The position numbers and the translations under genes were made by a program. From assembly GCA_029246505.1 (NCBI GenBank), contig JAQWNC010000007.1, positions 1 to 64,000 on the forward strand: 64,000 nucleotides of DNA, given 5' to 3'. The notes below the pieces were generated by a model, which did not search any database, had not been told where the DNA came from, and saw nothing but the letters and a program-made list of their open reading frames with translations. The first letter of the stretch is position 1, and every line of letters begins with the position of its first letter. Source of the stretch: Arenicellaceae bacterium (GTDB lineage: Bacteria > Pseudomonadota > Gammaproteobacteria > Arenicellales > Arenicellaceae). Positions 8,105-20,146 of this stretch are shown in pieces.

Positions 8105-8605
8105 TTGTTAGGACGTGTAGCGCAATTGTGCCATGTTGTATCGGCTTTCTGGGTTGTAGTGTTGGCGCTAATAATATTCGTCGATGTTAGCGGCCGGTAT
8201 TTGTTTAATGCGCCCTTATTGGGCGCGGTTGAAGTTATCAAGAACTCGGTTGTCTCCATCACGTTCCTGCAGATACCTCTGGCTGTTTATCGAGGCGGCA
8301 TGATTCGAACCACGCTGATTTATGATGCCGTGGGACCATTTTTTCAAAAGAATATACGATCCTTTACAAATATTCTTGGGTTACTATTTTTTCTGGGCAC
8401 CTCTTTCAGCTCCTGGGGGCCGTTTGTTGAAGCCTGGAATATTGGCGAATACGAAGGTGAGGGTGCACTTCGTGTCCCTACTTATCCAGTACGATTTCTC
8501 GTTACTTTAACATCGGCATTTACCGCATTCATATATTTATATTTGTTGTATCTCGATTGGACCAACCAACTGCTGCCAGAGAGCGAAAAGGTAACCAATG
8601 CTTGA
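8105..8605 (+). CDS. dctQ: TRAP transporter small permease (DctQ type)
   Basis: The 166-residue protein has four predicted membrane helices (about residues 8-28, 45-65, 90-110 and 130-152) and the DctQ features VDVSGRYLFNAPLLGAVEV and LQIPLAVYRGGMIRTT. The start is a TTG preceded by a GAGGGTAGG stretch; an in-frame stop just upstream excludes an earlier start. It lies 39 bases before the large permease gene. TRAP systems import organic acids using ion gradients. The matching binding protein is probably the gene at 15845-16930. Confidence 0.88.
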   Translation: MLGRVAQLCHVVSAFWVVVLALIIFVDVSGRYLFNAPLLGAVEVIKNSVVSITFLQIPLAVYRGGMIRTTLIYDAVGPFFQKNIRSFTNILGLLFFLGTSFSSWGPFVEAWNIGEYEGEGALRVPTYPVRFLVTLTSAFTAFIYLYLLYLDWTNQLLPESEKVTNA

Positions 8606-8644
8606 CCGGAGTTATAAGCACCACCAACCGAAGAGATTTAACTA

Positions 8645-9964
8645 ATGGGTCCCGAGGTAATCTTTTATTCGCTGGCGATTTTAATCGCTTTAGTATTGAT
8701 TGGTGTACACATTGGTATAGCGCTCGGCGTATCCAGCGTTCTCGGTGTTTATCTCATTACCAACAACCTGGAAATCGCCTTATCTACACTCGGCACAACC
8801 GCATATGAATCAATTAGAAGCCATACGCTGGCGGTAATCCCATTATTTGTATTAATGGGAGAACTCATTAGTCGATCCGGAGCTGCAACTGATTTATACA
8901 TGCTGTGTGAGCGCGCACTGCGCAGGCTACCTGGTCGTTTAGCTGTTGCGACTGTCATCGGTAATACTGCTTTTGCAGCGGTGTCTGGGGTCGCGATCGC
9001 TTCGGCAGCAACTTTCAGCCGTATTGCCTACCCTGAAATGCAAAAATTGGGGTACAACAGACCCTATTCCTTAGGAGTAATCACCGGCAGCGCTTGCCTC
9101 GGGATGTTAATACCACCAAGCATACTCATGATCATATGGGCCATTCTGACTGAAGGATCGGTGGGCGCACTTTTTATAGCCGGGATTATACCCGGCATTC
9201 TTCTCGGGTTTACCTTCATAAGTTACTGCGTTATCTCTGCCATGCTGAATCCGTCTATTGCGCCGAATGCAGTTGCATCACAAGACGCACAAGTAGAAAA
9301 GGCCGCGGTCAGATCGGAAATCTTCGGCTCATTAGGCGTTCTAACTCTAATCATCATTGTACTAGGCGGCCTATGGGGAGGAGTTTTTACACCCACAGAA
9401 GCAGCAGGGTTTGGTGTACTTAGTAGTATCCTGATCGGTGCGGTGAAGGGAATGCGCCGTAAAGATTTTATGGATGCGATTTATAGCGCAGGCCGGTCAA
9501 CAGCACCGATCATGTTTTTATTAATCGCTGGTTCGTTATACGCGAGATTGTTGGCCATGAGTGGTGGTATCAACCTGGTCCAGGATATGTTTGTCGGATC
9601 CGGCCTATCTGTTATTGGCATGATGCTTATCATGACCGTTGTCTGGCTATTATTGGGTGTACTTATCGATTCCATCTCTGTTGCCCTAATAACCGCACCA
9701 ATCTTTTTTCCAATTGCCGCCGCCGCAGGCTTCGACCAAATTGCATTCGCAATCTATGCGATTCTAGTCATAGAGGCCGGACTATTGACCCCCCCAGTCG
9801 GATTATTAGTGTTTACCGTCAAAGCGGCCATACCCGACCCCACGATAACACTTGGGGAAATATTCAAGGGTGCTATCCCTTATTGGATAATGCTGCTAAC
9901 CGTTGCGATGTTAATTCTGGCTTTTCCTGAGCTAGCCTCCTGGTTACCCAGCAAGGTATTCTAA
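8645..9964 (+). CDS. dctM: TRAP transporter large permease (DctM type)
   Basis: The 439-residue polytopic protein has about 12 membrane helices. Family features include GVHIGIALGVSSVLGVYL near the start, SGVAIASAATFSRIAYPEM, LGMLIPPSILMIIWAILTEGSVG, FTPTEAAGFGV, and the closing LLTPPVGLLVFTVK. It follows dctQ and converges with the dikinase-like gene, with only 5 bases between stops. The substrate cannot be read from the sequence; the neighbouring enzymes suggest an organic acid degraded in the same island. Confidence 0.95.
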   Translation: MGPEVIFYSLAILIALVLIGVHIGIALGVSSVLGVYLITNNLEIALSTLGTTAYESIRSHTLAVIPLFVLMGELISRSGAATDLYMLCERALRRLPGRLAVATVIGNTAFAAVSGVAIASAATFSRIAYPEMQKLGYNRPYSLGVITGSACLGMLIPPSILMIIWAILTEGSVGALFIAGIIPGILLGFTFISYCVISAMLNPSIAPNAVASQDAQVEKAAVRSEIFGSLGVLTLIIIVLGGLWGGVFTPTEAAGFGVLSSILIGAVKGMRRKDFMDAIYSAGRSTAPIMFLLIAGSLYARLLAMSGGINLVQDMFVGSGLSVIGMMLIMTVVWLLLGVLIDSISVALITAPIFFPIAAAAGFDQIAFAIYAILVIEAGLLTPPVGLLVFTVKAAIPDPTITLGEIFKGAIPYWIMLLTVAMLILAFPELASWLPSKVF

Positions 9965-9969
9965 AGGCA

Positions 9970-11253
9970 TTATTTATACCAGCGCACCACACCCATAACC
10001 CCATCGACGCCGACCTGCGCACCATCGGGTATTGTTTCTGTAGCATCAAGGACACCAAGAACCATAGGAATACCACGCTCGCGTGCAAGCGATGCAAGGT
10101 GTGAAGTGCTACCGCCCAACTCTGCTACCACACCTGCAACACGCGGTAGAACCTGACTTAGCGCCGGGCCGGCGACTTTAGTAACCAGAACATCACCAGC
10201 CGCAACTCTCCCTAATTCACATTCACAATTAATTACGCATGCTCTACCACTGCCCCAACCGATGCCGGATGGATGCCCCTTTATCCCAGGGTGTCTTAAC
10301 CAAATCTCCTCCGGAACCACTGCAGCCTCCATTTGCAGCGGTCGTGCTTGAAGCATCTTAAAACCGGTGTCGTCTAACGACCATTCAATTTCTACAGAAG
10401 AACCAAGCAAACCTTCCGCCTTTAGCATCAACTCAGCAAGCACTTTTATTTGGCTTTTATCAAGACATGGTTCAGTTGATAGCTGCTTGGATATCGCCTC
10501 TGCACTTGGCTCCGCATGGTGTTGGCAAGACACACTGTGATCTTTACGACCAGCAGCTACCTCAGATAATTCGCCCTCACGGGTCACCTCGTAGCGGTCA
10601 GGCACAATTTCGCCTTGAGCGATAGCAGAACCGAGCCCCCAAGTCGCTGTTACAGCCATACTTCCGTCAGCCGTAAGACTCATTCCACCACCCGAAACAC
10701 TTGCTTGCACTAACGGTTGAATCACCAATGCCATAGCTGTTTCCGCTGGAGACATGTCATGGGTATCCATATATTGGCGCGCTCTCGATGACCAAAGGGC
10801 AGCCCAGCAGGCACGCACAGCGGTAAGAAAATCCTCCTCGCTTTGCAAACCAAGAAAACTTTCAAATTGCCCGGCAAATAATGAACCCGCGCTGTCTTCC
10901 AATAATGATGATGAACGGACTACTACCGGGATATCGGTATTTTCAGTCAATTCCCTATACGCAGCCAACAATTGCGTACGTACTGGCTCTACGATTGACG
11001 CATCAAAAAGACCGATTCTCACATCAGAGATGTTGCTACGCGCCTCAATAGGGTCTAGTTCCGCTATTTTGCGTGCAAGGTCGTCAAAACCCAATGAAGC
11101 CAACTGCATGCGGTAGGCTTCGGCATCAACCCCGAAACCACCAGCAATCGGTAAACCCGCTTGTCCAAGTAGCGCTTGATTCGCAGCTTTCGGCCCAAAA
11201 CGACTGTCATCGACAGCCGCCGGATCGCTAAGTTTAATTACCAATTGTGTCAT
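9970..11253 (-). CDS. Compact dikinase-like protein: ATP-grasp plus swivelling His domain
   Basis: The 427-residue protein combines a PEP/pyruvate-dikinase ATP-binding domain (FGPKAANQALLGQAGLPIAGG at the start, then PVVVRSSSLLEDSAGSLFAG and WGLGSAIAQGEIVPDRYEV) with a C-terminal phosphohistidine domain, GGSTSHLASLARERGIPM, catalytic His at 385. The PEP-binding TIM barrel of PEP synthase and PpdK is absent, and so is the large substrate domain of rifampicin phosphotransferase. Family knowledge says ATP phosphorylates the His, which then swings to an acceptor; here the acceptor and its domain are unknown. The start at 11253 is chosen because homology begins there; an in-frame start exists at 11322. 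It lies downstream of the M24-like gene on the same strand, 204 bases away. Confidence 0.8.
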   Translation of the reverse strand: MTQLVIKLSDPAAVDDSRFGPKAANQALLGQAGLPIAGGFGVDAEAYRMQLASLGFDDLARKIAELDPIEARSNISDVRIGLFDASIVEPVRTQLLAAYRELTENTDIPVVVRSSSLLEDSAGSLFAGQFESFLGLQSEEDFLTAVRACWAALWSSRARQYMDTHDMSPAETAMALVIQPLVQASVSGGGMSLTADGSMAVTATWGLGSAIAQGEIVPDRYEVTREGELSEVAAGRKDHSVSCQHHAEPSAEAISKQLSTEPCLDKSQIKVLAELMLKAEGLLGSSVEIEWSLDDTGFKMLQARPLQMEAAVVPEEIWLRHPGIKGHPSGIGWGSGRACVINCECELGRVAAGDVLVTKVAGPALSQVLPRVAGVVAELGGSTSHLASLARERGIPMVLGVLDATETIPDGAQVGVDGVMGVVRWYK

Positions 11254-11457
11254 TTTCGATTGATCTCTGAGAAGTTTGCCCACGAACGGGGCACTGTAAA
11301 CAAATACGCTCCAAGCAAACAATGAAATGACACCTTGGTCAATTCATTGCCTACCCGGAGCATCTACATGCAGATCAAGCCAAGCCTGATATTCACTCCC
11401 TACTTCACTCCTTTCAAAAATAAAAAGAGTAATAAGGGTTAGGCTAAAACGGTATTG

Positions 11458-12711
11458 CTATCTATAGCCAGTAATAGGATCAACAACCGTAATCTCTTTA
11501 ACCGGAAAGTTAGAAACAATCTCGACTCTGTCTTCATGTACGATAAGCATCTCTTCAATTCGCACACCAAACTCCAGTGGTTTGCCGTGCTGAGTTTCCA
11601 ACGCGAACACCATACCAGCTTTAATTTCGACCGGGTGATCGAGAGACCAGATGCGCGAAATAACCGGAATATCGTACTGGGCAAGCCCGAGACCATGGCC
11701 CCAAAGATTTGCCGCAGCCTGATCTTCTTCTTCATAACCCCAAATTTTCTTGGCCGATGGCCATTTTTCAGCAATTTCACGTGTTGTAGTGCCAACCTTA
11801 ACCGCATCAATGGAATCATATAGCCATTCCAGCGCCGTAGAGTAATAGTCCTTCATCTCCTGGGTTGGTTCTTTGCCTACACAGTAAGTTCGGTAGTAAC
11901 AAGACTTATAGCCATTCCAGGTAAGAGCGGCCAAATCCATAAACGTAATATCACCTGGCTTAATAATACGATCCGAAAAGTTACGCCAGTTTGGCCAAGT
12001 GTTTGGGCCGGATGAAACGATGACGTCTTCAACATCTTCCATACCAGGAAATGAATACAGGTATTTCATGATGTGGGCAGTCACCTGATTTTCAGTAATA
12101 CCAGGTCGAAGAAACTTCATTGTTTCCCAATGCGCAGCGTCACCGATGGTGCCAACCATACGCATACATTCTTGCTCGTCCTCATTTTTAATGGCACGAG
12201 CCTCCATCATTGGAGTCATACCATCTGTCCAGGTGATACCTGCGTCCTCAAAACCACGGATCATATTAATATCAGTAAAGTCGACGCCAAGCTTCTCACC
12301 TTCAACACCATACCGCTTCATTTCATACAAGATAGCATCGGTAAACTTCTTAACCTGATCTTTAGCCGCACCACCTGCCGCCCCCTTGATCCAACAATAA
12401 GAATAACGAATATTTTCTTCGGGAATCCATGGGCAATGTCGCTTGATCTGAACGCCGATGTCGCCTTGCTCAAACAAGATAGGCGCGCCATCACCACATA
12501 ACAGTGCGTAGCGAAGCCCAGGTTTTAGTCGGCACCAGCCGGGTGTGATCGTGGCAGTGATGTAGCGAATGTTCTCGTCATACATACACAGCATGGCACC
12601 AAGTCCATGCGCCTTCATTCTGGCTCGGGCACTCTCTAATCGATATGTACGCAGTCGTTCCCAGTTAATGCGTTCTTGCCAGTCAACACCAGCCATACCA
12701 AAATCACTCAT
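11458..12711 (-). CDS. M24-family (creatinase/aminopeptidase P-like) protein with an altered metal site
   Basis: The 417-residue protein has a creatinase N-terminal domain (about 15-170) and a pita-bread M24 domain (about 180-405). Of the five canonical metal ligands, four have counterparts: D259 in TFMDLAAL, H339 in WGHGLGLA, E372 in ALETQHG and E386 in VRIEEML. The second Asp is replaced: the usual GY-x-S-D-x-x-RT reads GYKSCYYRT, with C271 at that place. Creatinase also departs from the metal-binding pattern here, so a non-peptidase C-N or other hydrolase is plausible. DddP-type DMSP lyases are also M24 proteins, but their extra motifs were not recognised. The gene is probably in the island operon with the dikinase-like gene. 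Confidence 0.82.
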   Translation of the reverse strand: MSDFGMAGVDWQERINWERLRTYRLESARARMKAHGLGAMLCMYDENIRYITATITPGWCRLKPGLRYALLCGDGAPILFEQGDIGVQIKRHCPWIPEENIRYSYCWIKGAAGGAAKDQVKKFTDAILYEMKRYGVEGEKLGVDFTDINMIRGFEDAGITWTDGMTPMMEARAIKNEDEQECMRMVGTIGDAAHWETMKFLRPGITENQVTAHIMKYLYSFPGMEDVEDVIVSSGPNTWPNWRNFSDRIIKPGDITFMDLAALTWNGYKSCYYRTYCVGKEPTQEMKDYYSTALEWLYDSIDAVKVGTTTREIAEKWPSAKKIWGYEEEDQAAANLWGHGLGLAQYDIPVISRIWSLDHPVEIKAGMVFALETQHGKPLEFGVRIEEMLIVHEDRVEIVSNFPVKEITVVDPITGYR

Positions 12712-13111
12712 ATAAATCTCCTGTCTCTAATTAGGACTATTGGTTAAAACGATTTCTAACCATTTTATATCTGTAACAAAATCTATAACGAGGCCTTGAA
12801 AGCCAACCATGATAGATGCGATCTCACCGGAAAAATGGACCCCGCTCAAGAAGAGCGAAGTTATTATACCTAAGAACTAGATTAGAATGAATGATTTTAA
12901 ACTCCCTGAGCTTAAGCTTTTACATTTTGTTTAAAAACTTCCCAAAGCTAAGCAGTATGCTAGTATCGTTTTTTTACAAGGGGGATCTTTTAGATGGGGC
13001 ATCAAGATTCATTGGGTGGCTCTCTGCAACTTTAGTGGGGCGCATCAAAAATCAACCAGTAAGCAGCGCGTATGCGCGGCAATTAATTTTATTTTAAGAG
13101 GAGTAAGTAGC
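12712..13111. other. Divergent control region between the M24-like and DRE-TIM genes
   Basis: This 400-base AT-rich gap separates two divergent genes and should hold promoters for both. A small GCTC-aagaa-GAGC hairpin lies near 12843-12856. A 68-codon frame at 12891-13097 shows no family features and is not called. No clear operator was identified. The end of the gap contains the AAGAGGAG ribosome binding site of the DRE-TIM gene. Confidence 0.4.
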
Positions 13112-14338
13112 ATGAGTGATACACCGTGGAAAACTGACGACTGTTTTGTAAGCCCTTGGAACTTCGCCCCAGAGGTATTAGAGAACCTCAATTTCCCAAA
13201 GCAGATTAAAATCCATGATGTGACCCTGCGCGATGGAGAGCAACAGACAGGCGTCGCTTTTGATTTTGATGACAAGATTCGTATCGCAGAAGGTCTGGCA
13301 GAAGCCGGTGTACATCGTATTGAGGCAGGTATGCCCGTTGTTTCACCCCAAGATGCTGCAGCAATTACAGAGATTGTAAAACGTGATCTTGGGCCACAAA
13401 TCTTTGCCTTCTCACGTTGCATGATAGACGACGTTAAACGTGCCATCGATACCGGCGTAAAAGGTATTGTAATGGAAGTTCCGTCAAGTGAGCACATCAT
13501 CAAGTATGGCTATCAATGGCCAATGGAAAAAGCCGTAGATTTATCTATCGAATCAACGGCCTTTGCACATGAGCAGGGTCTGGAAGTTGTATTCTTTCCT
13601 ATCGATTTTACTCGTGCAGATATGACCTGGGTATTGAATCTTATTACCAGAGTAGCTGACGAAGGCCACATGGATTCGCTCGCACTGGTTGACACCTTTG
13701 GTGCAACATCTCCTCATGCGATGCAATATTTTGTACGGCAGGTAAAATCAAGGTTTCCGGACACCCCACTTGAAGCCCATTTCCATATGGACTTCGGTAT
13801 GGGTGTTGCCAATACCATAATGGCCTTGGCGGAAGGTGTAGAAGTAGTCCAGTCCACCGTACTAGGTATTGGTGAACGCGCTGGTAACACACCATGGGAA
13901 GAAACAGTACTAGCACTGCTAACACTTTATGGTATCGATGTTGGCGTTAATTATGACAAGCTATACAAACTTGCATTGATGGTCTCGGAAATAGCTAATC
14001 ATCCTATCCCGGCTAGCAGACCAGTAGTTGGTGAACATGCATTCAATGTCGAGTCCGGTATCATTGCAACCTGGCTATTAAACTGTGGTGATGAACGCAT
14101 CACCGAGGTGTTCCCGTATCGACCTTCGCTCATAGGCCGAGATGACCCACAGGTTGTTATGGGTAAAGGGAGTGGTATCGATTCAGTTAAACACTGGCTG
14201 CAACGTGCCAGCATCGAAGCGACAGAAGAGCAGGCAATGGAAGTTTTAGGCGCTGTTAAGTCATGGGGGCTTGAACGCAAATGCCTTATGACACAGGAAG
14301 AGTTTAATGCTTTGGCGAAAGGCGTTTTATCTGCATAA
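13112..14338 (+). CDS. DRE-TIM metallolyase (isopropylmalate/homocitrate synthase-like)
   Basis: The 408-residue protein has the DRE-TIM barrel signature: HDVTLRDGEQQTG with R40 and D41, the HxH metal pair H223/H225 in EAHFHMDFGMG, and the GIGERAGNTPWEE loop typical of 2-isopropylmalate and homocitrate synthases. These enzymes condense acetyl-CoA with a 2-oxoacid, or run the related retro-Claisen cleavage. It lacks the LeuA regulatory domain, and no leuBCD genes are nearby, so a catabolic or specialised role is more likely than leucine synthesis. The ATG at 13112 is chosen for its AAGAGGAG site; an upstream in-frame start at 13016 lacks support. The gene ends before a bidirectional terminator. 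Confidence 0.85.
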   Translation: MSDTPWKTDDCFVSPWNFAPEVLENLNFPKQIKIHDVTLRDGEQQTGVAFDFDDKIRIAEGLAEAGVHRIEAGMPVVSPQDAAAITEIVKRDLGPQIFAFSRCMIDDVKRAIDTGVKGIVMEVPSSEHIIKYGYQWPMEKAVDLSIESTAFAHEQGLEVVFFPIDFTRADMTWVLNLITRVADEGHMDSLALVDTFGATSPHAMQYFVRQVKSRFPDTPLEAHFHMDFGMGVANTIMALAEGVEVVQSTVLGIGERAGNTPWEETVLALLTLYGIDVGVNYDKLYKLALMVSEIANHPIPASRPVVGEHAFNVESGIIATWLLNCGDERITEVFPYRPSLIGRDDPQVVMGKGSGIDSVKHWLQRASIEATEEQAMEVLGAVKSWGLERKCLMTQEEFNALAKGVLSA

Positions 14339-14353
14339 GCTTCTGGCAAGATG

Positions 14354-14387
14354 AAAAAGCCCGGGGATATTTTGCCGGGCTTTTTTT
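14354..14387. terminator. Bidirectional Rho-independent terminator
   Basis: AGCCCGG (14358-14364) and CCGGGCT (14375-14381) form a 7-bp perfect stem with a 10-base loop, with A-tract on the left and a seven-T tract on the right. It can serve both the rightward DRE-TIM gene and the leftward carboxymuconolactone decarboxylase-family gene, which converge on it. Confidence 0.9.
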
Positions 14388-14403
14388 GGCATCCAATTTA
14401 CTT

Positions 14404-14991
14404 CTAAGACGTGGAGGATGCCTTCTCGGCATTTGCTGCAGTCTGCGGATTTAGTTCGCAGGCTTGCTCCCAAGTAATAATATTAAGGGTGCGAACAAAA
14501 CTTCCAGCACCTACATTCTCCGCACACCATAAACCAAGCTCTACAATTTCGGTTTCGGTGAAGTGTTCCTTTAATTCTGCATAAAAAGCGTCGTCATCGG
14601 CTTTGGCAATATCGTGTTTCAAATAATCAGCGAATTGTAAAGCTAGTTTTTCGCGCACACTAAATACATCGCTATTCTGGTAATCCCACACCTGTTGAAT
14701 TTTATCTTCCAGTAATCCAGCGTCTTTGGCAACAGTCGAGCGCACCGTGCTGCAATAACCACAAGTATGTTCAAATGCAATTTTCACTCGGCAAAGTTCC
14801 TTTAAGTCCGCTGGCAATTCGCCCTCAATAACGAACGCGCGCCAATATCGATACCATGCCAAACCGGCGGGACTTTTGAACAACACACGCAGCACGCGAG
14901 CGTCCGGAGAACCGGCTTCCTCAGCTAATTTCAAAAATTCTTTTGCTTCAGCCGTCAGCACTTCGTCGCTAATATATTCTAAACGTGGCAT
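14404..14991 (-). CDS. Carboxymuconolactone decarboxylase/AhpD-family protein
   Basis: The 195-residue helical protein carries the family core LCRVKIAFEHTCGYCSTVRS. The CxxC pair C77/C80 is preceded by E74-H75, as in AhpD-type thiol peroxidase partners. The trailing His of full AhpD motifs is replaced by Arg-Ser, so peroxidase-partner activity is uncertain. Such proteins often accompany catabolic clusters, either as decarboxylases or as redox helpers. It is last in a leftward series with the TRAP binding protein and the small membrane protein. Confidence 0.85.
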   Translation of the reverse strand: MPRLEYISDEVLTAEAKEFLKLAEEAGSPDARVLRVLFKSPAGLAWYRYWRAFVIEGELPADLKELCRVKIAFEHTCGYCSTVRSTVAKDAGLLEDKIQQVWDYQNSDVFSVREKLALQFADYLKHDIAKADDDAFYAELKEHFTETEIVELGLWCAENVGAGSFVRTLNIITWEQACELNPQTAANAEKASSTS

Positions 14992-15081
14992 TACATTCTC
15001 CTAAACAAATCCATTATGGATGGAATTTGTTAACCCTTACTTCGTACGACTAGACCTGAGTCTCGTAATAAGAATTTCCGG

Positions 15082-15567
15082 CTATTGGTAATCAAATTTA
15101 GTGTGCACCTCGGCCGGGAGTACTTCATTTTCATAGTAGCTTCTAAAGTCTTCACTAAATAAGAACTTTCTATCCCGCCAAAATACCTGGAAACCCGATA
15201 AATCTTTGAGGAAATAAAACTGTTCAGTCATTCCATGCCAATGCCTTGGTTCCAGCCCACCCGCACTTTTTAGATAGTACGCGTTCTCATAGAGACGGAA
15301 AAAATTATGCACAATCAGAGTAAAACGAAACTTATCGGCGACATTAATGTTCTCTATATCATGCATGCCGCTGCGAAAAATACCCGAGAGCTCCTCATCT
15401 TGCATCATTAATGTATACAAACTCCGAAATTCTTCCATCAGCTTGTGAGCTACACTTTCCCTTGCCACATCCACATATCCTCTTATCTGCATACCTATAC
15501 AGACAAGTCCCAATATGACGGCAACAACAGCGACCGACACAATAAAATAATATACCTGCTCAGACAT
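15082..15567 (-). CDS. Small membrane-anchored protein of unknown function
   Basis: The 161-residue protein has one N-terminal membrane helix at about residues 5-28 (YYFIVSVAVVAVILGLVCIG) and a soluble part rich in aromatic residues, including RFTLIVHNFFRLYENAYYL and FQVFWRDRKFLF. No family was recognised with certainty. The start at 15567 is preferred over 15630, because the upstream extension would lie inside the terminator hairpin at 15610-15640. It sits between the TRAP binding protein and the AhpD-like gene. No catalytic motif is visible. Confidence 0.7.
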   Translation of the reverse strand: MSEQVYYFIVSVAVVAVILGLVCIGMQIRGYVDVARESVAHKLMEEFRSLYTLMMQDEELSGIFRSGMHDIENINVADKFRFTLIVHNFFRLYENAYYLKSAGGLEPRHWHGMTEQFYFLKDLSGFQVFWRDRKFLFSEDFRSYYENEVLPAEVHTKFDYQ

Positions 15568-15609
15568 GATGCTTGTCCCAACTTGGTTGCGAATCAAAAA
15601 CTTCAGTAT

Positions 15610-15640
15610 AAAAAACCGACACCCATTCATAGGTGCCGGT
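15610..15640 (-). terminator. Rho-independent terminator after the 35-residue reading frame
   Basis: On the minus strand ACCGGCACC and GGTGTCGGT pair with one G-T wobble around an 8-base loop, followed by five to six T. It lies 23 bases after the stop of the small frame at 15664-15771 and 43 bases before the start of the membrane protein, so it separates the two transcription units at least partly. Confidence 0.8.
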
Positions 15641-15663
15641 TCTATTTTAAATGAAAAGCCAGA

Positions 15664-15771
15664 CTAAAAGCGTTTAGTTGCCTCAAGGCCATAGGTGCGT
15701 AGTTTACCACTGGAATGGGCGGTTCCTTCAAACACAATGTTGAAGGTCTTAACATTTGTTGTTTCCTGCAT
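15664..15771 (-). CDS. Possible 35-residue small protein
   Basis: The frame reads MQETTNVKTFNIVFEGTAHS and continues to LRTYGLEATKRF. It lies 73 bases after the TRAP binding-protein gene and is followed directly by a Rho-independent terminator, so it sits in the transcript. A GGTAGAG stretch precedes the ATG. It has no signal peptide or recognised family. It may be a real small protein, or the tail of a decayed gene. Confidence 0.4.
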   Translation of the reverse strand: MQETTNVKTFNIVFEGTAHSSGKLRTYGLEATKRF

Positions 15772-15844
15772 AGATCACTCTACCTATTTAGGTCAGTTAT
15801 TACGTTTTACTCGTGATTCTTAGATGCCAAGACCAACCTAAAAC

Positions 15845-16930
15845 TCAATCTATTACATAGTTAACTGGCCATTGGTATCCACCTTCCGCGACTTCATCTA
15901 TATAGCCACGCATGATTTCTGTACCTGGCATGCCACGTCCATTTGCGTCTTGAGCCATCTGATTAGGAAAATCTGCCAAGGAATTACCCCAGCCTTGCCT
16001 AACTTCCTCCGGCAATACACTGATGGTAGCACTAGAGCTTTCTAAACTGTCCAGTCCAGCGGTCTGAGCTATCTCCAATGCCTCTGCTGCTACTACTTCA
16101 TATTCCTGCGAAACCTCTATAACGATTGCTCGTACTTCGGCGGGTAAATTCTGCAAAGAATCATTATTCATAGTCATAATCACTGCACCGCCAATGGCAC
16201 CGAATCCTATTAAGGTATAGTACGGGGCAGGCTCATAGAATTTATAGCTATAATAAGCTGAGGGAAACATTAGCCAGCCGTCATATACGCCTGTTTGCAT
16301 TGCTAAGTAACCGTCAGGCAAAGTAGATTGCACAGGAATCACTCCAGCAAACTCTAGCCACGGAAGATTAGGACCCGCACCCCCAATTTTGACTCCTATT
16401 AGGTCATCGATACTGCTCCAGGGCATGGTGGTTCCGAGGTGGTAATTATCATAGCCGTTTATGGCCAGCAACTGCTGCCCGTAAAGATCAGTCAACTGAT
16501 TCTCAAGCCATGGGTACTTATCATAGACCTTTCGAGCGACCTGTATTGCTTGAACCGCGTCCTGAGGACCAAAAGGCGCGTAATAAGCAAAATTATGAAG
16601 AAAAAGTTTTGCTGGCTCGAAACATACGCAATATGCGCCAATATCTAAGATACCGTTTTGTACCGCTTCAAGAGTTTCCGCAACCTGCGCGATCGAACCA
16701 CCGTAACCTTCAACAAAATTAATCGTGTATTCGGTTTCTGCCGCCACTCGGCGCTTAACCTCTGGCACGAAGAAATCTCGCATTTGCGTAGCATAAACGG
16801 ATGGCCCGGCAGGATGGCCGGCACCAATTCTTACCGTTAATGAACTAGACTCTGAACAACCGTACAGAAAAATCGTCCCGATCAAGGCCGTTAACAGGGC
16901 CGCGGGTTTTAACAGGCCTTTATGCATCAT
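15845..16930 (-). CDS. dctP: TRAP transporter substrate-binding lipoprotein (DctP/TAXI class)
   Basis: The 361-residue precursor has a lipoprotein signal with lipobox LYGC at residues 22-25, so it is anchored by C25. The mature part has the binding-protein pattern: VRIGAGHPAGPSVYATQM at the start, VEGYGGSIAQVAETLEAVQNGILDIG, and DLIGVKIGGAGPNLPWLE. It binds the substrate for a TRAP permease. The only permease genes in the window are dctQ-dctM at 8105-9964, about 6 kb away across the same island, so the three probably form one transporter split by catabolic genes. Confidence 0.9.
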   Translation of the reverse strand: MMHKGLLKPAALLTALIGTIFLYGCSESSSLTVRIGAGHPAGPSVYATQMRDFFVPEVKRRVAAETEYTINFVEGYGGSIAQVAETLEAVQNGILDIGAYCVCFEPAKLFLHNFAYYAPFGPQDAVQAIQVARKVYDKYPWLENQLTDLYGQQLLAINGYDNYHLGTTMPWSSIDDLIGVKIGGAGPNLPWLEFAGVIPVQSTLPDGYLAMQTGVYDGWLMFPSAYYSYKFYEPAPYYTLIGFGAIGGAVIMTMNNDSLQNLPAEVRAIVIEVSQEYEVVAAEALEIAQTAGLDSLESSSATISVLPEEVRQGWGNSLADFPNQMAQDANGRGMPGTEIMRGYIDEVAEGGYQWPVNYVID

Positions 16931-17148
16931 TACTCACTCCTACATTTATTTATATTAAAATTATATGCGTCTTGCAGTTAAACCATAGCCACTTCATTGA
17001 GCGCAGTTTTTATTACACCAACATAATTATCGCGCAAAACAGTATCACGAATACTATCTATGCTCACTGATATAATAAATCTTGAATAGTAATAATCCTT
17101 AGCAATAAACTGTCTCTTTGACCTTGTGCCTACATGAGGAACGACACT

Positions 17149-17883
17149 ATGGGTAATAACAAACAAACACTCCCCTACCTTAATCCGCGTTTTAAGATAA
17201 AACAGTACGATTGGGACGTTTTTGTCGGCCCTGCTGCTGGTGAGCCCGCCGTAGATTTTACGGTCACTGATTTCAGTGGAAAAGAGTACACACTTTTGGA
17301 TTTTCTAGGCAAATGGGTTGTGCTGGAGACAGGGTCATCTACCTGTTCTCAATATACAAAAAATATTGACCAAATGAGGGGGCTTAGAGGTGAATTTCCT
17401 GATGTCGAATTTCTGCTTATCTATGTACGCGAAGCTCACCCTGGCGAACGCCTATCACAGCACAAGCGGTTTTCGGACAAGCTAAATGCGGCAAGGTTGT
17501 TACCCGAAAAGTATCATGAAGATCGTAGAATACTAATCGATACGCTAAATGGTGATATGCATCGCGTGTATGGTGCAATGCCAAACGTAATTTATGTTAT
17601 CAATCCCGAAGGCAGCGTGCACTATCGCTGCGATTGGGCGCATGTTAATGGTTTACGAACCGCCTTAAGCAAGCGTGATCACGTACATACCATCGAACAC
17701 GCGAGTTTGAAAGATATCAGCGCTAGTCGCACTCTCTGGGTTGCAATAAAAACTATGTGGACCGGCGGGTTCCTGGCGCTTTGGGACTTTATCGCCGCGA
17801 CACCCGCCTTATACCGTCATCATAAATTGATTGATGCGTACTACGACAAGCACGGAAAATTCAAGCAACATTCAAATAAATAA
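17149..17883 (+). CDS. Iodothyronine deiodinase-like thioredoxin-fold protein, Cys form
   Basis: The 244-residue protein has a thioredoxin-like core with the deiodinase-type pattern. GSSTCSQY places C66 where animal deiodinases have selenocysteine (GSCTU), and IYVREAHPGE (91-100) matches their YIxEAH element. The neighbouring Cys of deiodinases is S64 here. The C-terminal 60 residues carry a tryptophan-rich segment, FLALWDFIAATPALYRHH. Bacterial members are poorly characterised and may be peroxiredoxin-like rather than dehalogenases. ATG 17149 is chosen because a GAGGA site precedes it; ATG 17134 lacks one. It diverges from dctP and leads two dehydrogenase genes. Confidence 0.78.
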   Translation: MGNNKQTLPYLNPRFKIKQYDWDVFVGPAAGEPAVDFTVTDFSGKEYTLLDFLGKWVVLETGSSTCSQYTKNIDQMRGLRGEFPDVEFLLIYVREAHPGERLSQHKRFSDKLNAARLLPEKYHEDRRILIDTLNGDMHRVYGAMPNVIYVINPEGSVHYRCDWAHVNGLRTALSKRDHVHTIEHASLKDISASRTLWVAIKTMWTGGFLALWDFIAATPALYRHHKLIDAYYDKHGKFKQHSNK

Positions 17884-18131
17884 TACTAAAGTAGAGCCCA
17901 AGCATTTCCGTTAAATTGCTGTGCTTAATTTATTTTGATAGTCTCCGCCAAACGGTGAAAAGTTACCGAAATTTTTCGCCGGAAATTAAAGGAGCAGCGG
18001 TAATTATTAGCAACTTAGCGGCCCTTAAATAAACGCTTCATACCGATTAATGATTTTGCCCCTGGTGGGCATTTAACGAACTCTGCACGTTTTTAAAGTT
18101 TAAAATACAGAGTTAAAAGAGGATCCGAGCT

Positions 18132-19094
18132 TTGAGAAAAACATTGATTGCTGTTGCAGATTCGCCATTCGTAAACTTGCAACCTACAGAAAAAGTACTA
18201 GTCAGTTTGGACGCTGATATTCAAATTGCCAAACAAACAACACCAGAAGCGATTCTCGAAGTCGCCCGCGAAGCCGATGGACTTATGGTTACCTTTGCCA
18301 ATATCAGCAAGGAAATTATTCAAGGGCTCGAACGTTGTAAGGTTATTGGCCGGTACGGCATTGGTGTGGACAATATTGATTTGGATGCGGCAACAGAAGC
18401 CGGTATTCAGGTCTGTTATGTGCCCGATTATTGTCAGGATGAAGTGTCGGACCACGCAATGACCCTGCTGGTCGGCCTCGCTCGCAAAATCACCTATAGC
18501 AACTCGCTAGTCCAACAAGGCCGATGGGATGCAAAAGCTGTAGCACCAATATATCGCTTGCGCGGTCGCACCCTCGGATTAGTAGGGCTGGGACAGATTC
18601 CACAGTCGGTGGTACCAAAGGCGCAAGCCTTCGGTTTGAATGTAATTGCTTCTGATCCTTTTGTGCCCGAAGAAGTAGCGAAAAACTTCGATGTTGAACT
18701 GGTTGATTTTGATTCTTTACTTGAGCGCTCAGATTATATTTCTGTACATGCACCGTTAACCGACAAAACCCATCATTTATTTAGTAAAGATGCGTTCCAA
18801 AAAATGAAATCTGAGGCATTACTAATTAATACCGCTAGAGGGCCGCTGGTGGATGATCAGGCACTAGCCGACGCACTGGACGGTGGACAAATCGGTGGCG
18901 CAGCTCTCGACGTACTGCCGATTGAACCACCGGTTGATTCGCCGCTATTGAACCGCGATAACGTTATAATAACTCCACACACTGCTTTTTATTCAGTAGA
19001 AGCACTGGTTGACCTGCAAACCAAGGCTGCGGAAGATGTAGTAAGCGTCTTAAATGGGCAGACACCTCGCTATCCCGTAAATAAATTAGGCTGA
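18132..19094 (+). CDS. CtBP-like D-2-hydroxyacid dehydrogenase
   Basis: The 320-residue protein belongs to the D-isomer-specific 2-hydroxyacid dehydrogenases and most resembles the C-terminal-binding-protein branch. GRYGIGVDNIDLDAATEAGI, the nucleotide loop GLVGLGQIPQSV (third Gly of the usual GxGxxG is Pro), the catalytic Arg in NTARGPLVDD, Glu in DVLPIEPP and His in ITPHTAFYS are visible. It should interconvert a 2-oxoacid and a D-2-hydroxyacid with NAD(P)H. The start is TTG with AGAGGA upstream. It is 35 bases before the zinc alcohol dehydrogenase gene, suggesting two consecutive oxidations. Confidence 0.9.
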   Translation: MRKTLIAVADSPFVNLQPTEKVLVSLDADIQIAKQTTPEAILEVAREADGLMVTFANISKEIIQGLERCKVIGRYGIGVDNIDLDAATEAGIQVCYVPDYCQDEVSDHAMTLLVGLARKITYSNSLVQQGRWDAKAVAPIYRLRGRTLGLVGLGQIPQSVVPKAQAFGLNVIASDPFVPEEVAKNFDVELVDFDSLLERSDYISVHAPLTDKTHHLFSKDAFQKMKSEALLINTARGPLVDDQALADALDGGQIGGAALDVLPIEPPVDSPLLNRDNVIITPHTAFYSVEALVDLQTKAAEDVVSVLNGQTPRYPVNKLG

Positions 19095-19129
19095 TAGCAC
19101 AGAAAACATACGTACTAGGAGCACAACTA

Positions 19130-20146
19130 ATGAAAGCAATGGTCTTGCAATCCCCTGAATCATTGGTTCAGGGGGAAATTGAAAACCCTACTGTTGAAGC
19201 TGGCAATACACTTATAAAAATCACCCACTCCGGCGTGTGCGGCACTGACCTTAAAATCTATCAGGGCGGTATTCCGGTTGACTATCCACGTATTATGGGA
19301 CATGAAATGATCGGTGAAATAGCCGAGGTCGGTGGTGCAGAAGGGGTTGAAGTTGGCTCCAGAGTCATTATAGATCCAGTTGTCTATTGCGGCCATTGCT
19401 ATCAATGCCGTCGCGGGCAAACACAATTGTGCCCAACAGGGGCAATATATGGCAGAGACCGTGATGGCGGCTTTACCGAATATATGCAGACCGCGGCCGA
19501 TGCGATTTTTCCTTTACCCGATAATATTAGCGGCAATACTGCACCACTGCTTCAAGTCATGACCACCTGTTTGCATGCGCAACGCCTTGCAGATATCTTT
19601 CCTGGGGATTCGGTTGTAGTCCTTGGACTCGGCGTTGGCGGGCTACTGCACGTGCAGCTAGCAAAGGCCCGAGGTGCTTATCCAGTAATCGGTATTACCC
19701 GTAGCCCGGAGCGGCGCGCCCTTGCAGAACAACTAGGCGCCGACTTTACCTTTGCGCCGGATGACGACGTTGATAAGAAAGTACTCGAATTGACTGGTGG
19801 TGTTGGTGCAGATCTCGTTATCGAATCTGTCGGTGCAGTTGCGGTGTTGGAAGAGGCAATTAATCTGGCGCGTATCGGTGGGAAACTATTATTGTTCGGT
19901 ATCTACACCAGCACGGAACTCAAATTATCCCTGTATCAATTGTATTTCAAGGAACTTGCTGTCATTAATGCGCGAGCAGCAAAACGAGAGGACTTCCCTG
20001 CCTGTATCGATCTCGTAAGCCGGGGCGCTGTCCAGCTTGAGCCAATAGTCAGTCACGTTCTACCGTTTAGTGAGCTTGAAAGGGCAATCACTATGCTGGG
20101 TGAAAGGGATAATAAGCGTATGAAAGTTATTCTGGACCACACCTGA
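19130..20146 (+). CDS. Zinc-dependent alcohol dehydrogenase (MDR family)
   Basis: The 338-residue medium-chain dehydrogenase has catalytic-zinc residues C37 (VCGTD), H58 and E59 (MGHEMIGE). It also has the structural-zinc cysteines C87, C90, C93 and C101 and a GLGVGGLLHVQLAKARGA nucleotide fold. The order resembles polyol and threonine dehydrogenases; the substrate is not evident. It is the last gene of the rightward part of the island. Confidence 0.92.
   Translation: MKAMVLQSPESLVQGEIENPTVEAGNTLIKITHSGVCGTDLKIYQGGIPVDYPRIMGHEMIGEIAEVGGAEGVEVGSRVIIDPVVYCGHCYQCRRGQTQLCPTGAIYGRDRDGGFTEYMQTAADAIFPLPDNISGNTAPLLQVMTTCLHAQRLADIFPGDSVVVLGLGVGGLLHVQLAKARGAYPVIGITRSPERRALAEQLGADFTFAPDDDVDKKVLELTGGVGADLVIESVGAVAVLEEAINLARIGGKLLLFGIYTSTELKLSLYQLYFKELAVINARAAKREDFPACIDLVSRGAVQLEPIVSHVLPFSELERAITMLGERDNKRMKVILDHT

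Follow-up and report, generated by a model that had tools for sequence, protein, structure and literature searches.

A candidate catabolic module built around a cysteine-substituted M24-fold enzyme and a minimal dikinase in an Arenicellaceae genome

We analyzed a window of 64,000 nucleotides from an Arenicellaceae bacterium (GenBank assembly GCA_029246505.1, contig JAQWNC010000007.1, positions 1 to 64,000 of the forward strand) and predict that a block of eleven genes at 8105-20146 is probably a copy of a catabolic module, so far undescribed, that would act on a small dissolved organic compound. Its signature is a gene for an M24-fold enzyme, accompanied by genes for a minimal dikinase, a DRE-TIM (HMGL-like) enzyme, a D-isomer-specific 2-hydroxyacid dehydrogenase (HADH), a zinc-dependent alcohol dehydrogenase (ADH) and a TRAP transporter. 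An initial annotation of this DNA had placed these families between and beyond TRAP genes lying about 6 kb apart. Pfam and NCBIfam searches found every family present and intact, and measured 5.9 kb from the end of DctM to DctP. The literature searched for this gene combination contained no description of it, which agrees with the initial annotation.

Conservation of the gene neighborhood

The M24 protein was scanned against 84,980 species genomes, and all counts out of 75 below are among the matches listed. Orthologues at 69-96% identity occur at 75 or more loci in at least seven phylum-level groups (Pseudomonadota, Rokubacteria, Acidobacteria, SAR324, Chloroflexi/SAR202, Actinomycetota, and Dormibacterota). 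They stand clearly apart from paralogues at 35-40% identity, of which there are five loci among the matches listed. All 75 listed orthologue loci are titled as metagenome-assembled genomes (MAGs) or bins, although isolates may lie beyond these matches, and an origin of all fetched copies in such genomes would explain why the module is undescribed.

Neighbors were searched in 80 fetched loci (the 75 orthologue and 5 paralogue loci). Near the M24 gene of the 75 listed orthologue loci we found, at E<=1e-6, the dikinase in 54, HADH in 36, ADH in 34, and the HMGL-like enzyme in 14; the TRAP subunits Q, M, and P occur in 6, 7, and 5. None of the four enzymes is present in 14 control loci (253 kb) around more distant M24 paralogues, although three of these have a DctM gene, one of them with a whole TRAP system. 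This comparison rules out chance co-location, and the grouping is far above chance.

The dikinase is the closest companion. Loci with at least 1.5 kb 3′ of M24 were considered testable (n=59). In 46 of them a dikinase gene picked as an open reading frame (ORF) starts no more than 1.6 kb downstream on the same strand, and in 52 it directly follows M24 once tblastn matches (L063, L064, L070, L072, and L089) and a long form (L110) are included. The initial annotation had proposed looking for co-occurrence in other genomes, and distant genomes do keep the genes together. Dikinase identity is mostly 52-87%. Most loci from Proteobacteria and Acidobacteria have the gene directly downstream, as do SAR324 and one of the two Rokubacteria loci. 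Distances between M24 proteins correlate with those between their partners (r = 0.72 for the dikinase, 0.71 for HADH, 0.79 for ADH, and 0.97 for the HMGL-like enzyme), a correlation to which shared ancestry contributes.

Certain marine relatives arrange the genes like an operon. A Woeseiaceae MAG (L047) carries them as a one-strand row, P-HADH-ADH-(FAH)-M24-dikinase-Q-M, where FAH is a fumarylacetoacetate-hydrolase-family gene. The frames overlap by 1-4 bases at P-HADH, M24-dikinase, dikinase-Q, and Q-M; between ADH and FAH the opposite strand carries a called frame of 292 amino acids. Two further loci (L046 and L050) repeat this gene order, and the split TRAP system is therefore a conserved layout with the binding protein at one end and the membrane subunits at the other. 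The proposal of one catabolic island thus stands for the cross-phylum neighborhood with its split TRAP system. It does not extend to the deiodinase-like gene, which is confined to the genus, and the AhpD-like gene has no more than weak matches beyond it.

Within the order (109 genomes searched), close M24 orthologues occur in the two genomes of this genus alone, and three other genomes have paralogues at 33-37% identity. Samples of the class (369 genomes) and phylum (399 genomes) contained no close orthologue besides that of the window, which points to a rare module with a patchy distribution. A plasmid origin was rejected after a search of 72,556 plasmid records, phage records not being covered, found no orthologue (best M24 match 39%, best dikinase match ~34%). 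In the M24 tree a long branch parts the module clade from two paralogues. Acidobacteria and Rokubacteria are nested within Pseudomonadota, and the starred branches cannot be explained with fewer than three changes. The topology fits transfer between phyla, with misbinned contigs as an alternative cause.

The M24-fold enzyme

Among proteins of solved structure, profile comparison places DddP, prolidases, creatinase, and ectoine hydrolase nearest. The AlphaFold model (pLDDT 84) is closest in fold to DddP (4s01, TM 0.78). Alignment to PepE, prolidase, and DddP indicates that four metal-ligand equivalents are kept, and that C271 sits at the second metal-ligand aspartate (compared with PepE, 5cdl, Pyrococcus furiosus prolidase, and DddP). 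The cysteine does not vary in 38 aligned rows or within the module clade and is also found in every paralogue examined, so it marks a clade wider than the module. Tyr346 replaces the second active-site histidine of prolidases.

With Cys271 in place of the second metal aspartate, the protein is neither DddP nor a prolidase. Assignment as an Xaa-Pro peptidase or prolidase (M24B) is ruled out by the break in the ligand set D, D, H, E, E and by loss of the second histidine, and the sequence indicates that the protein should not be called a peptidase. We take the metal-ligand set of DddP to be D295, D297, D307, H371, E406, and E421. DddP of the Roseobacter group is the best match to the window enzyme in profile and fold, and its D295, H371, E406, and E421 correspond to D259, H339, E372, and E386. 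It differs in sequence (22% identity), in gene neighborhood, and at D297 and D307, which are A261 and C271 here. These two substitutions and a score of 95.7 against a 600-bit cut-off rule out a DddP-type DMSP lyase. Ectoine hydrolase (EutD/DoeA) and creatinase are likewise non-peptidase catabolic enzymes of the M24 fold, but they share only 18-20% identity with the window protein, which has a cysteine at one of the five classical metal-ligand positions and keeps the other four. The protein also falls below the cut-off for ectoine hydrolase (TIGR02993, 51 of 613 bits).

The same genome also encodes cysteine-containing M24 paralogues (35-39% identity), as do plasmids of Haloferax, Phaeobacter, and Streptomyces (L039 at G000:C3:32000-51000, L041, L125, L126, and L127). 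The paralogues are found with 2-oxoacid-dehydrogenase genes and TRAP or ABC transporters, often also with succinate-semialdehyde-dehydrogenase genes, and these loci suggest a second M24 pathway that is apparently undescribed.

The minimal dikinase

The dikinase consists of an ATP-grasp domain and a phospho-histidine swivel domain alone. Pfam finds no other domain in its 450 residues, neither an acceptor domain nor a phosphoenolpyruvate (PEP) barrel, and the absence of the barrel had been recognized in the initial annotation. An ATP-grasp domain with a catalytic phospho-histidine swivel places the protein in the dikinase superfamily (PPDK/PpsA/RPH). In an alignment of 37 members R136, E313, Q325, R327, and H408 are invariant, as is Thr406, which lies with H408 in the motif GGSTSH. 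The AlphaFold model has a pLDDT of 80, and the top Foldseek matches are PEP synthase (2ols), RPH (5hv1), and HpeI (9goj).

Over the ATP-grasp and swivel domains the closest protein in both sequence and fold is the PEP synthase PpsA, which shares the motif GGxT(S/C)H. PpsA has a C-terminal PEP/pyruvate barrel that the window protein lacks. A PEP synthase was therefore rejected: the score is 212 of 740 bits, and the match to PEP synthases of 794-817 amino acids ends near residue 480 of theirs. HpeHI, CreHI, and PpsAB (PMC12167813) are likewise catabolic small-molecule dikinases split over proteins and use the same ATP-grasp and histidine-swivel chemistry. In those systems the ATP-grasp domain is separate and the swivel is fused to an acceptor domain, whereas here the ATP-grasp and swivel domains are fused in one protein, which rules out a two-component dikinase of that type. 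The closest characterized small-molecule dikinases act on phenolics, and HpeH has methionine at the position of Thr406 (PMC12167813).

Since the dikinase has no acceptor domain, the acceptor must come from another protein. The M24-fold enzyme, its constant neighbor, is the obvious candidate, yet it occurs without the dikinase in seven loci. Retention of M24 without the dikinase in some lineages implies that phosphorylation is no obligatory part of the M24 step. A long dikinase form with ~200 extra residues in the middle of the protein is encoded in Actinomycetota, Dormibacterota, and unclassified bins (L105, L110, L111, L112, and L113). Sequence comparison linked its middle domain to no solved structure, and this domain may be the acceptor domain missing from the window protein. 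A profile of this domain found nothing in the window or the other loci, so a hidden acceptor domain in a neighboring gene was rejected.

Other enzymes and accessory genes

Catalytic motifs are intact in the dikinase, HMGL-like enzyme, HADH, and ADH, and the zinc motifs of ADH are conserved. The HMGL-like enzyme keeps the metal-site motifs RDGEQ, HxH, and GERxGN. It has the metal and catalytic motifs and the single catalytic domain in common with the DRE-TIM enzymes 2-isopropylmalate and homocitrate synthase. It differs from them in reaching no family cut-off, in an N-to-M change after HxH, in having no regulatory domain, and in its place in a catabolic block. The reaction that defines Claisen-condensing DRE-TIM enzymes is an acetyl-CoA-dependent condensation of a 2-oxo acid. 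Orthologues at 53-93% identity lie near M24 in 11 listed loci at >=250 bits. A FAH-family gene is present in 14 listed loci, and no locus has both. HADH accompanies the FAH-family gene in 13 of the 14 loci and ADH in 12. The two enzymes may therefore be alternative end steps that cleave a C-C bond. HADH proteins encoded near M24 are ~27-72% identical to that of the window.

The AhpD-like protein has a 92% identical homologue in the same-genus genome (G020). Homologues at 26-30% identity adjoin the dikinase in L067, L070, L072, L075, and L117, and another (28%) lies 6 kb away in L060. The deiodinase-like gene is 79% identical in G020, where it adjoins HADH. None of the 80 fetched loci held a match to it, and as a genus-only gene it is ruled out as a member of the pathway.

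Accessory genes differ greatly between lineages. The variable families include FAH, Gfo/Idh, 3-hydroxyisobutyrate-dehydrogenase-like, CocE/S15-like, TctC, histidinol-dehydrogenase-like, molybdenum hydroxylase, and HyuAB-like proteins. With families varying by lineage, no single compound is indicated, and naming a substrate from them was rejected. In L045, L048, and L049 the genes 3′ of M24-dikinase encode a CoA-transferase III, two HyuA/HyuB-type proteins (by eye), a GntR-type regulator, an isochorismatase-like protein, and an HMG-CoA-lyase-like protein; L048 also has a UbiD-family gene upstream. In two SAR202/Dehalococcoidia loci (L099 and L103), M24-ADH is followed by universal-stress-like, radical-SAM-like, corrinoid-protein-like, and uroporphyrinogen-decarboxylase-like genes (by eye), a row that suggests a methyl-transfer system.

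Transport

The block encodes the P, Q, and M subunits of a TRAP transporter (PF03480, PF04290, and PF06808). In TRAP binding proteins a conserved arginine pairs with the ligand carboxylate. DctP was compared with the solved structures 4n6d, 4pgn, 4nap, and 4p56. In place of KIR, EIR, or EVR in these relatives, all six orthologues have the motif KI-G/A-GAG (including a frame-broken copy in L063), and the ligand-pairing arginine of a carboxylate-type TRAP protein is absent. An ordinary organic acid is therefore no safe guess for the ligand. In other lineages TctC tricarboxylate-type receptors are encoded near the module (25 listed loci). The suggestion that the system imports an organic acid was not borne out by the DctP orthologues and the TctC receptors.

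Proposed pathway and alternatives

We propose that the TRAP system imports the compound and that the M24-fold enzyme, as a lyase or amidohydrolase, may cleave a C-N, C-O, or C-S bond in the manner of DddP, ectoine hydrolase, or creatinase. The dikinase would pass the β-phosphate of ATP via His408 to the substrate or to an intermediate held by another protein. HADH and ADH, each linked to NAD(P), would oxidize two hydroxyls to ketones, and a C-C cleaving enzyme would then free central metabolites, a role predicted here for the DRE-TIM enzyme and in other lineages for the FAH-type enzyme. The order suggested in the initial annotation, with phosphorylation first, then cleavage and two oxidations, is putative. 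Bond cleavage, phosphoryl transfer, two oxidations, and C-C cleavage together would account for all core genes.

Several observations weigh against this reading. The window genes are spread over both strands in several units, not in a single operon. The dikinase is absent from 7 of the 59 testable loci, namely four in Actinomycetota (HMGL-M24) and three in SAR202/Dehalococcoidia (M24-ADH), so the M24 reaction does not require every part. HADH and ADH each come from a large family, with some matches in other lineages at ~30% identity, and the mutual exclusion of FAH and HMGL is not significant alone (P = 0.085).

The block could instead begin the breakdown of a phenolic or heteroaromatic compound by phosphorylating a ring hydroxyl, with later enzymes opening the product, on the pattern of the Hpe, cresol, and phenylphosphate pathways. 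The phenolic substrates of the closest characterized dikinases (PMC12167813) favor this. So does the presence, close to the module in some lineages, of UbiD-family, HyuA/HyuB-type, amidohydrolase, molybdenum-hydroxylase, and isochorismatase-like genes. We consider it unlikely: the loci share no recurring ring-cleaving dioxygenase, CoA ligase, or ring hydroxylase, and UbiD and Hyu genes are each confined to three loci. The swivel motif is of the PEP-synthase type with Thr406 kept, which HpeH lacks, and there is no acceptor domain of the HpeH or PpsA-phenylphosphate type. Slightly less likely still is breakdown of an onium or cyclic osmolyte, in which M24 would act by β-elimination like DddP or by C-N hydrolysis like creatinase and ectoine hydrolase, and the dehydrogenases would process the freed hydroxy acid. 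By profile and fold, no non-peptidase relatives are closer than these three enzymes, and the loss of the carboxylate-pairing arginine from DctP is in keeping with such a ligand. M24 scores far under the DddP and ectoine hydrolase cut-offs given above (96 of 600 and 51 of 613 bits), however, the module also occurs in soil and groundwater lineages, and known onium and ectoine pathways offer no place for a dikinase.

Lineage-variable accessory genes and the use of both strands in the window would also suit a catabolic hot spot where unrelated enzymes gathered around a transporter. This is very improbable, being largely refuted by cross-phylum linkage: the families that recur next to M24 in different phyla are absent from all 14 control loci, and reading frames overlap in L047.

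Marine, soil, and groundwater bacteria from several phyla have the proposed catabolic module in common. Its substrate is likely a compound that recurs in dissolved organic matter and that bacteria in culture do not use in this way. The module points to two enzyme variants, an M24-fold enzyme with cysteine in the metal site and a dikinase without an acceptor domain. It is conceivable, though doubtful, that the two form one ATP-dependent enzyme, in which the M24 pita-bread pocket would be the acceptor site, the phospho-histidine domain would phosphorylate the bound substrate there, and Cys271 and the remaining metal ligands would cleave it. If so, it would be a third small-molecule dikinase architecture and a new M24-fold reaction.

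Gene content and boundaries of the block

Table 1. Predicted genes of the block, with positions in the window
Feature	Position	Strand	Evidence and remarks
TRAP small permease subunit DctQ	8105..8605	+	PF04290, E 6.4e-22; alongside M in L046, L047, L050, L053, L115
TRAP large permease subunit DctM	8645..9964	+	PF06808, E 4.5e-79; 64-71% orthologues in L046, L047, L050, L053
Minimal dikinase, 450 aa (ATP-grasp PPDK_N + PEP-utilizers mobile domain)	9970..11322	-	PF01326, E 2.6e-52; PF00391, E 1.8e-17
M24-fold enzyme, cysteine-substituted clade (D259, C271, H339, E372, E386); module signature gene	11458..12711	-	PF00557 + PF01321
DRE-TIM (HMGL-like) Claisen-type enzyme, predicted	13112..14338	+	PF00682, E 2.4e-64
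CMD/AhpD-like protein, accessory	14404..14991	-	PF02627
ORF of no known family, hydrophobic N-terminus, between AhpD-like gene and DctP	15082..15630	-	No Pfam/NCBIfam match
TRAP solute-binding lipoprotein DctP	15845..16930	-	PF03480
Deiodinase/AhpC-TSA-like thioredoxin-fold protein; genus-restricted passenger	17134..17883	+	PF00837
D-isomer-specific 2-hydroxyacid dehydrogenase (HADH)	18132..19094	+	PF02826 + PF00389
Zinc-dependent medium-chain alcohol dehydrogenase (ADH), threonine-dehydrogenase/RspB-like	19130..20146	+	NCBIfam best match PRK10083

The start of the HMGL-like gene was moved from the listed ORF start at 13016 by comparison with a same-genus locus (L038). The ORF of no known family, which the initial annotation had not mentioned, had no homologue in loci L045-L124 and is probably outside the module.

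In G020 the gene set is divided between two contigs, one with Q-M-dikinase-M24-HMGL-AhpD and the other with P-deiodinase-like-HADH-ADH. Its left flank consists of DoxX- and HemN-like genes, differing from the window, and its right flank of shikimate-kinase-like and oxaloacetate-decarboxylase-like genes, where the window has cmoA and cmoB (flank names were read by eye). Because both ends adjoin different genes in two species of the genus, we retain the limits first assigned to the block. In G020, NHL-repeat-like and TonB-dependent-receptor-like genes adjoin DctP (L135:2199-3488), replacing the unknown-family ORF and the AhpD-like gene of the window.

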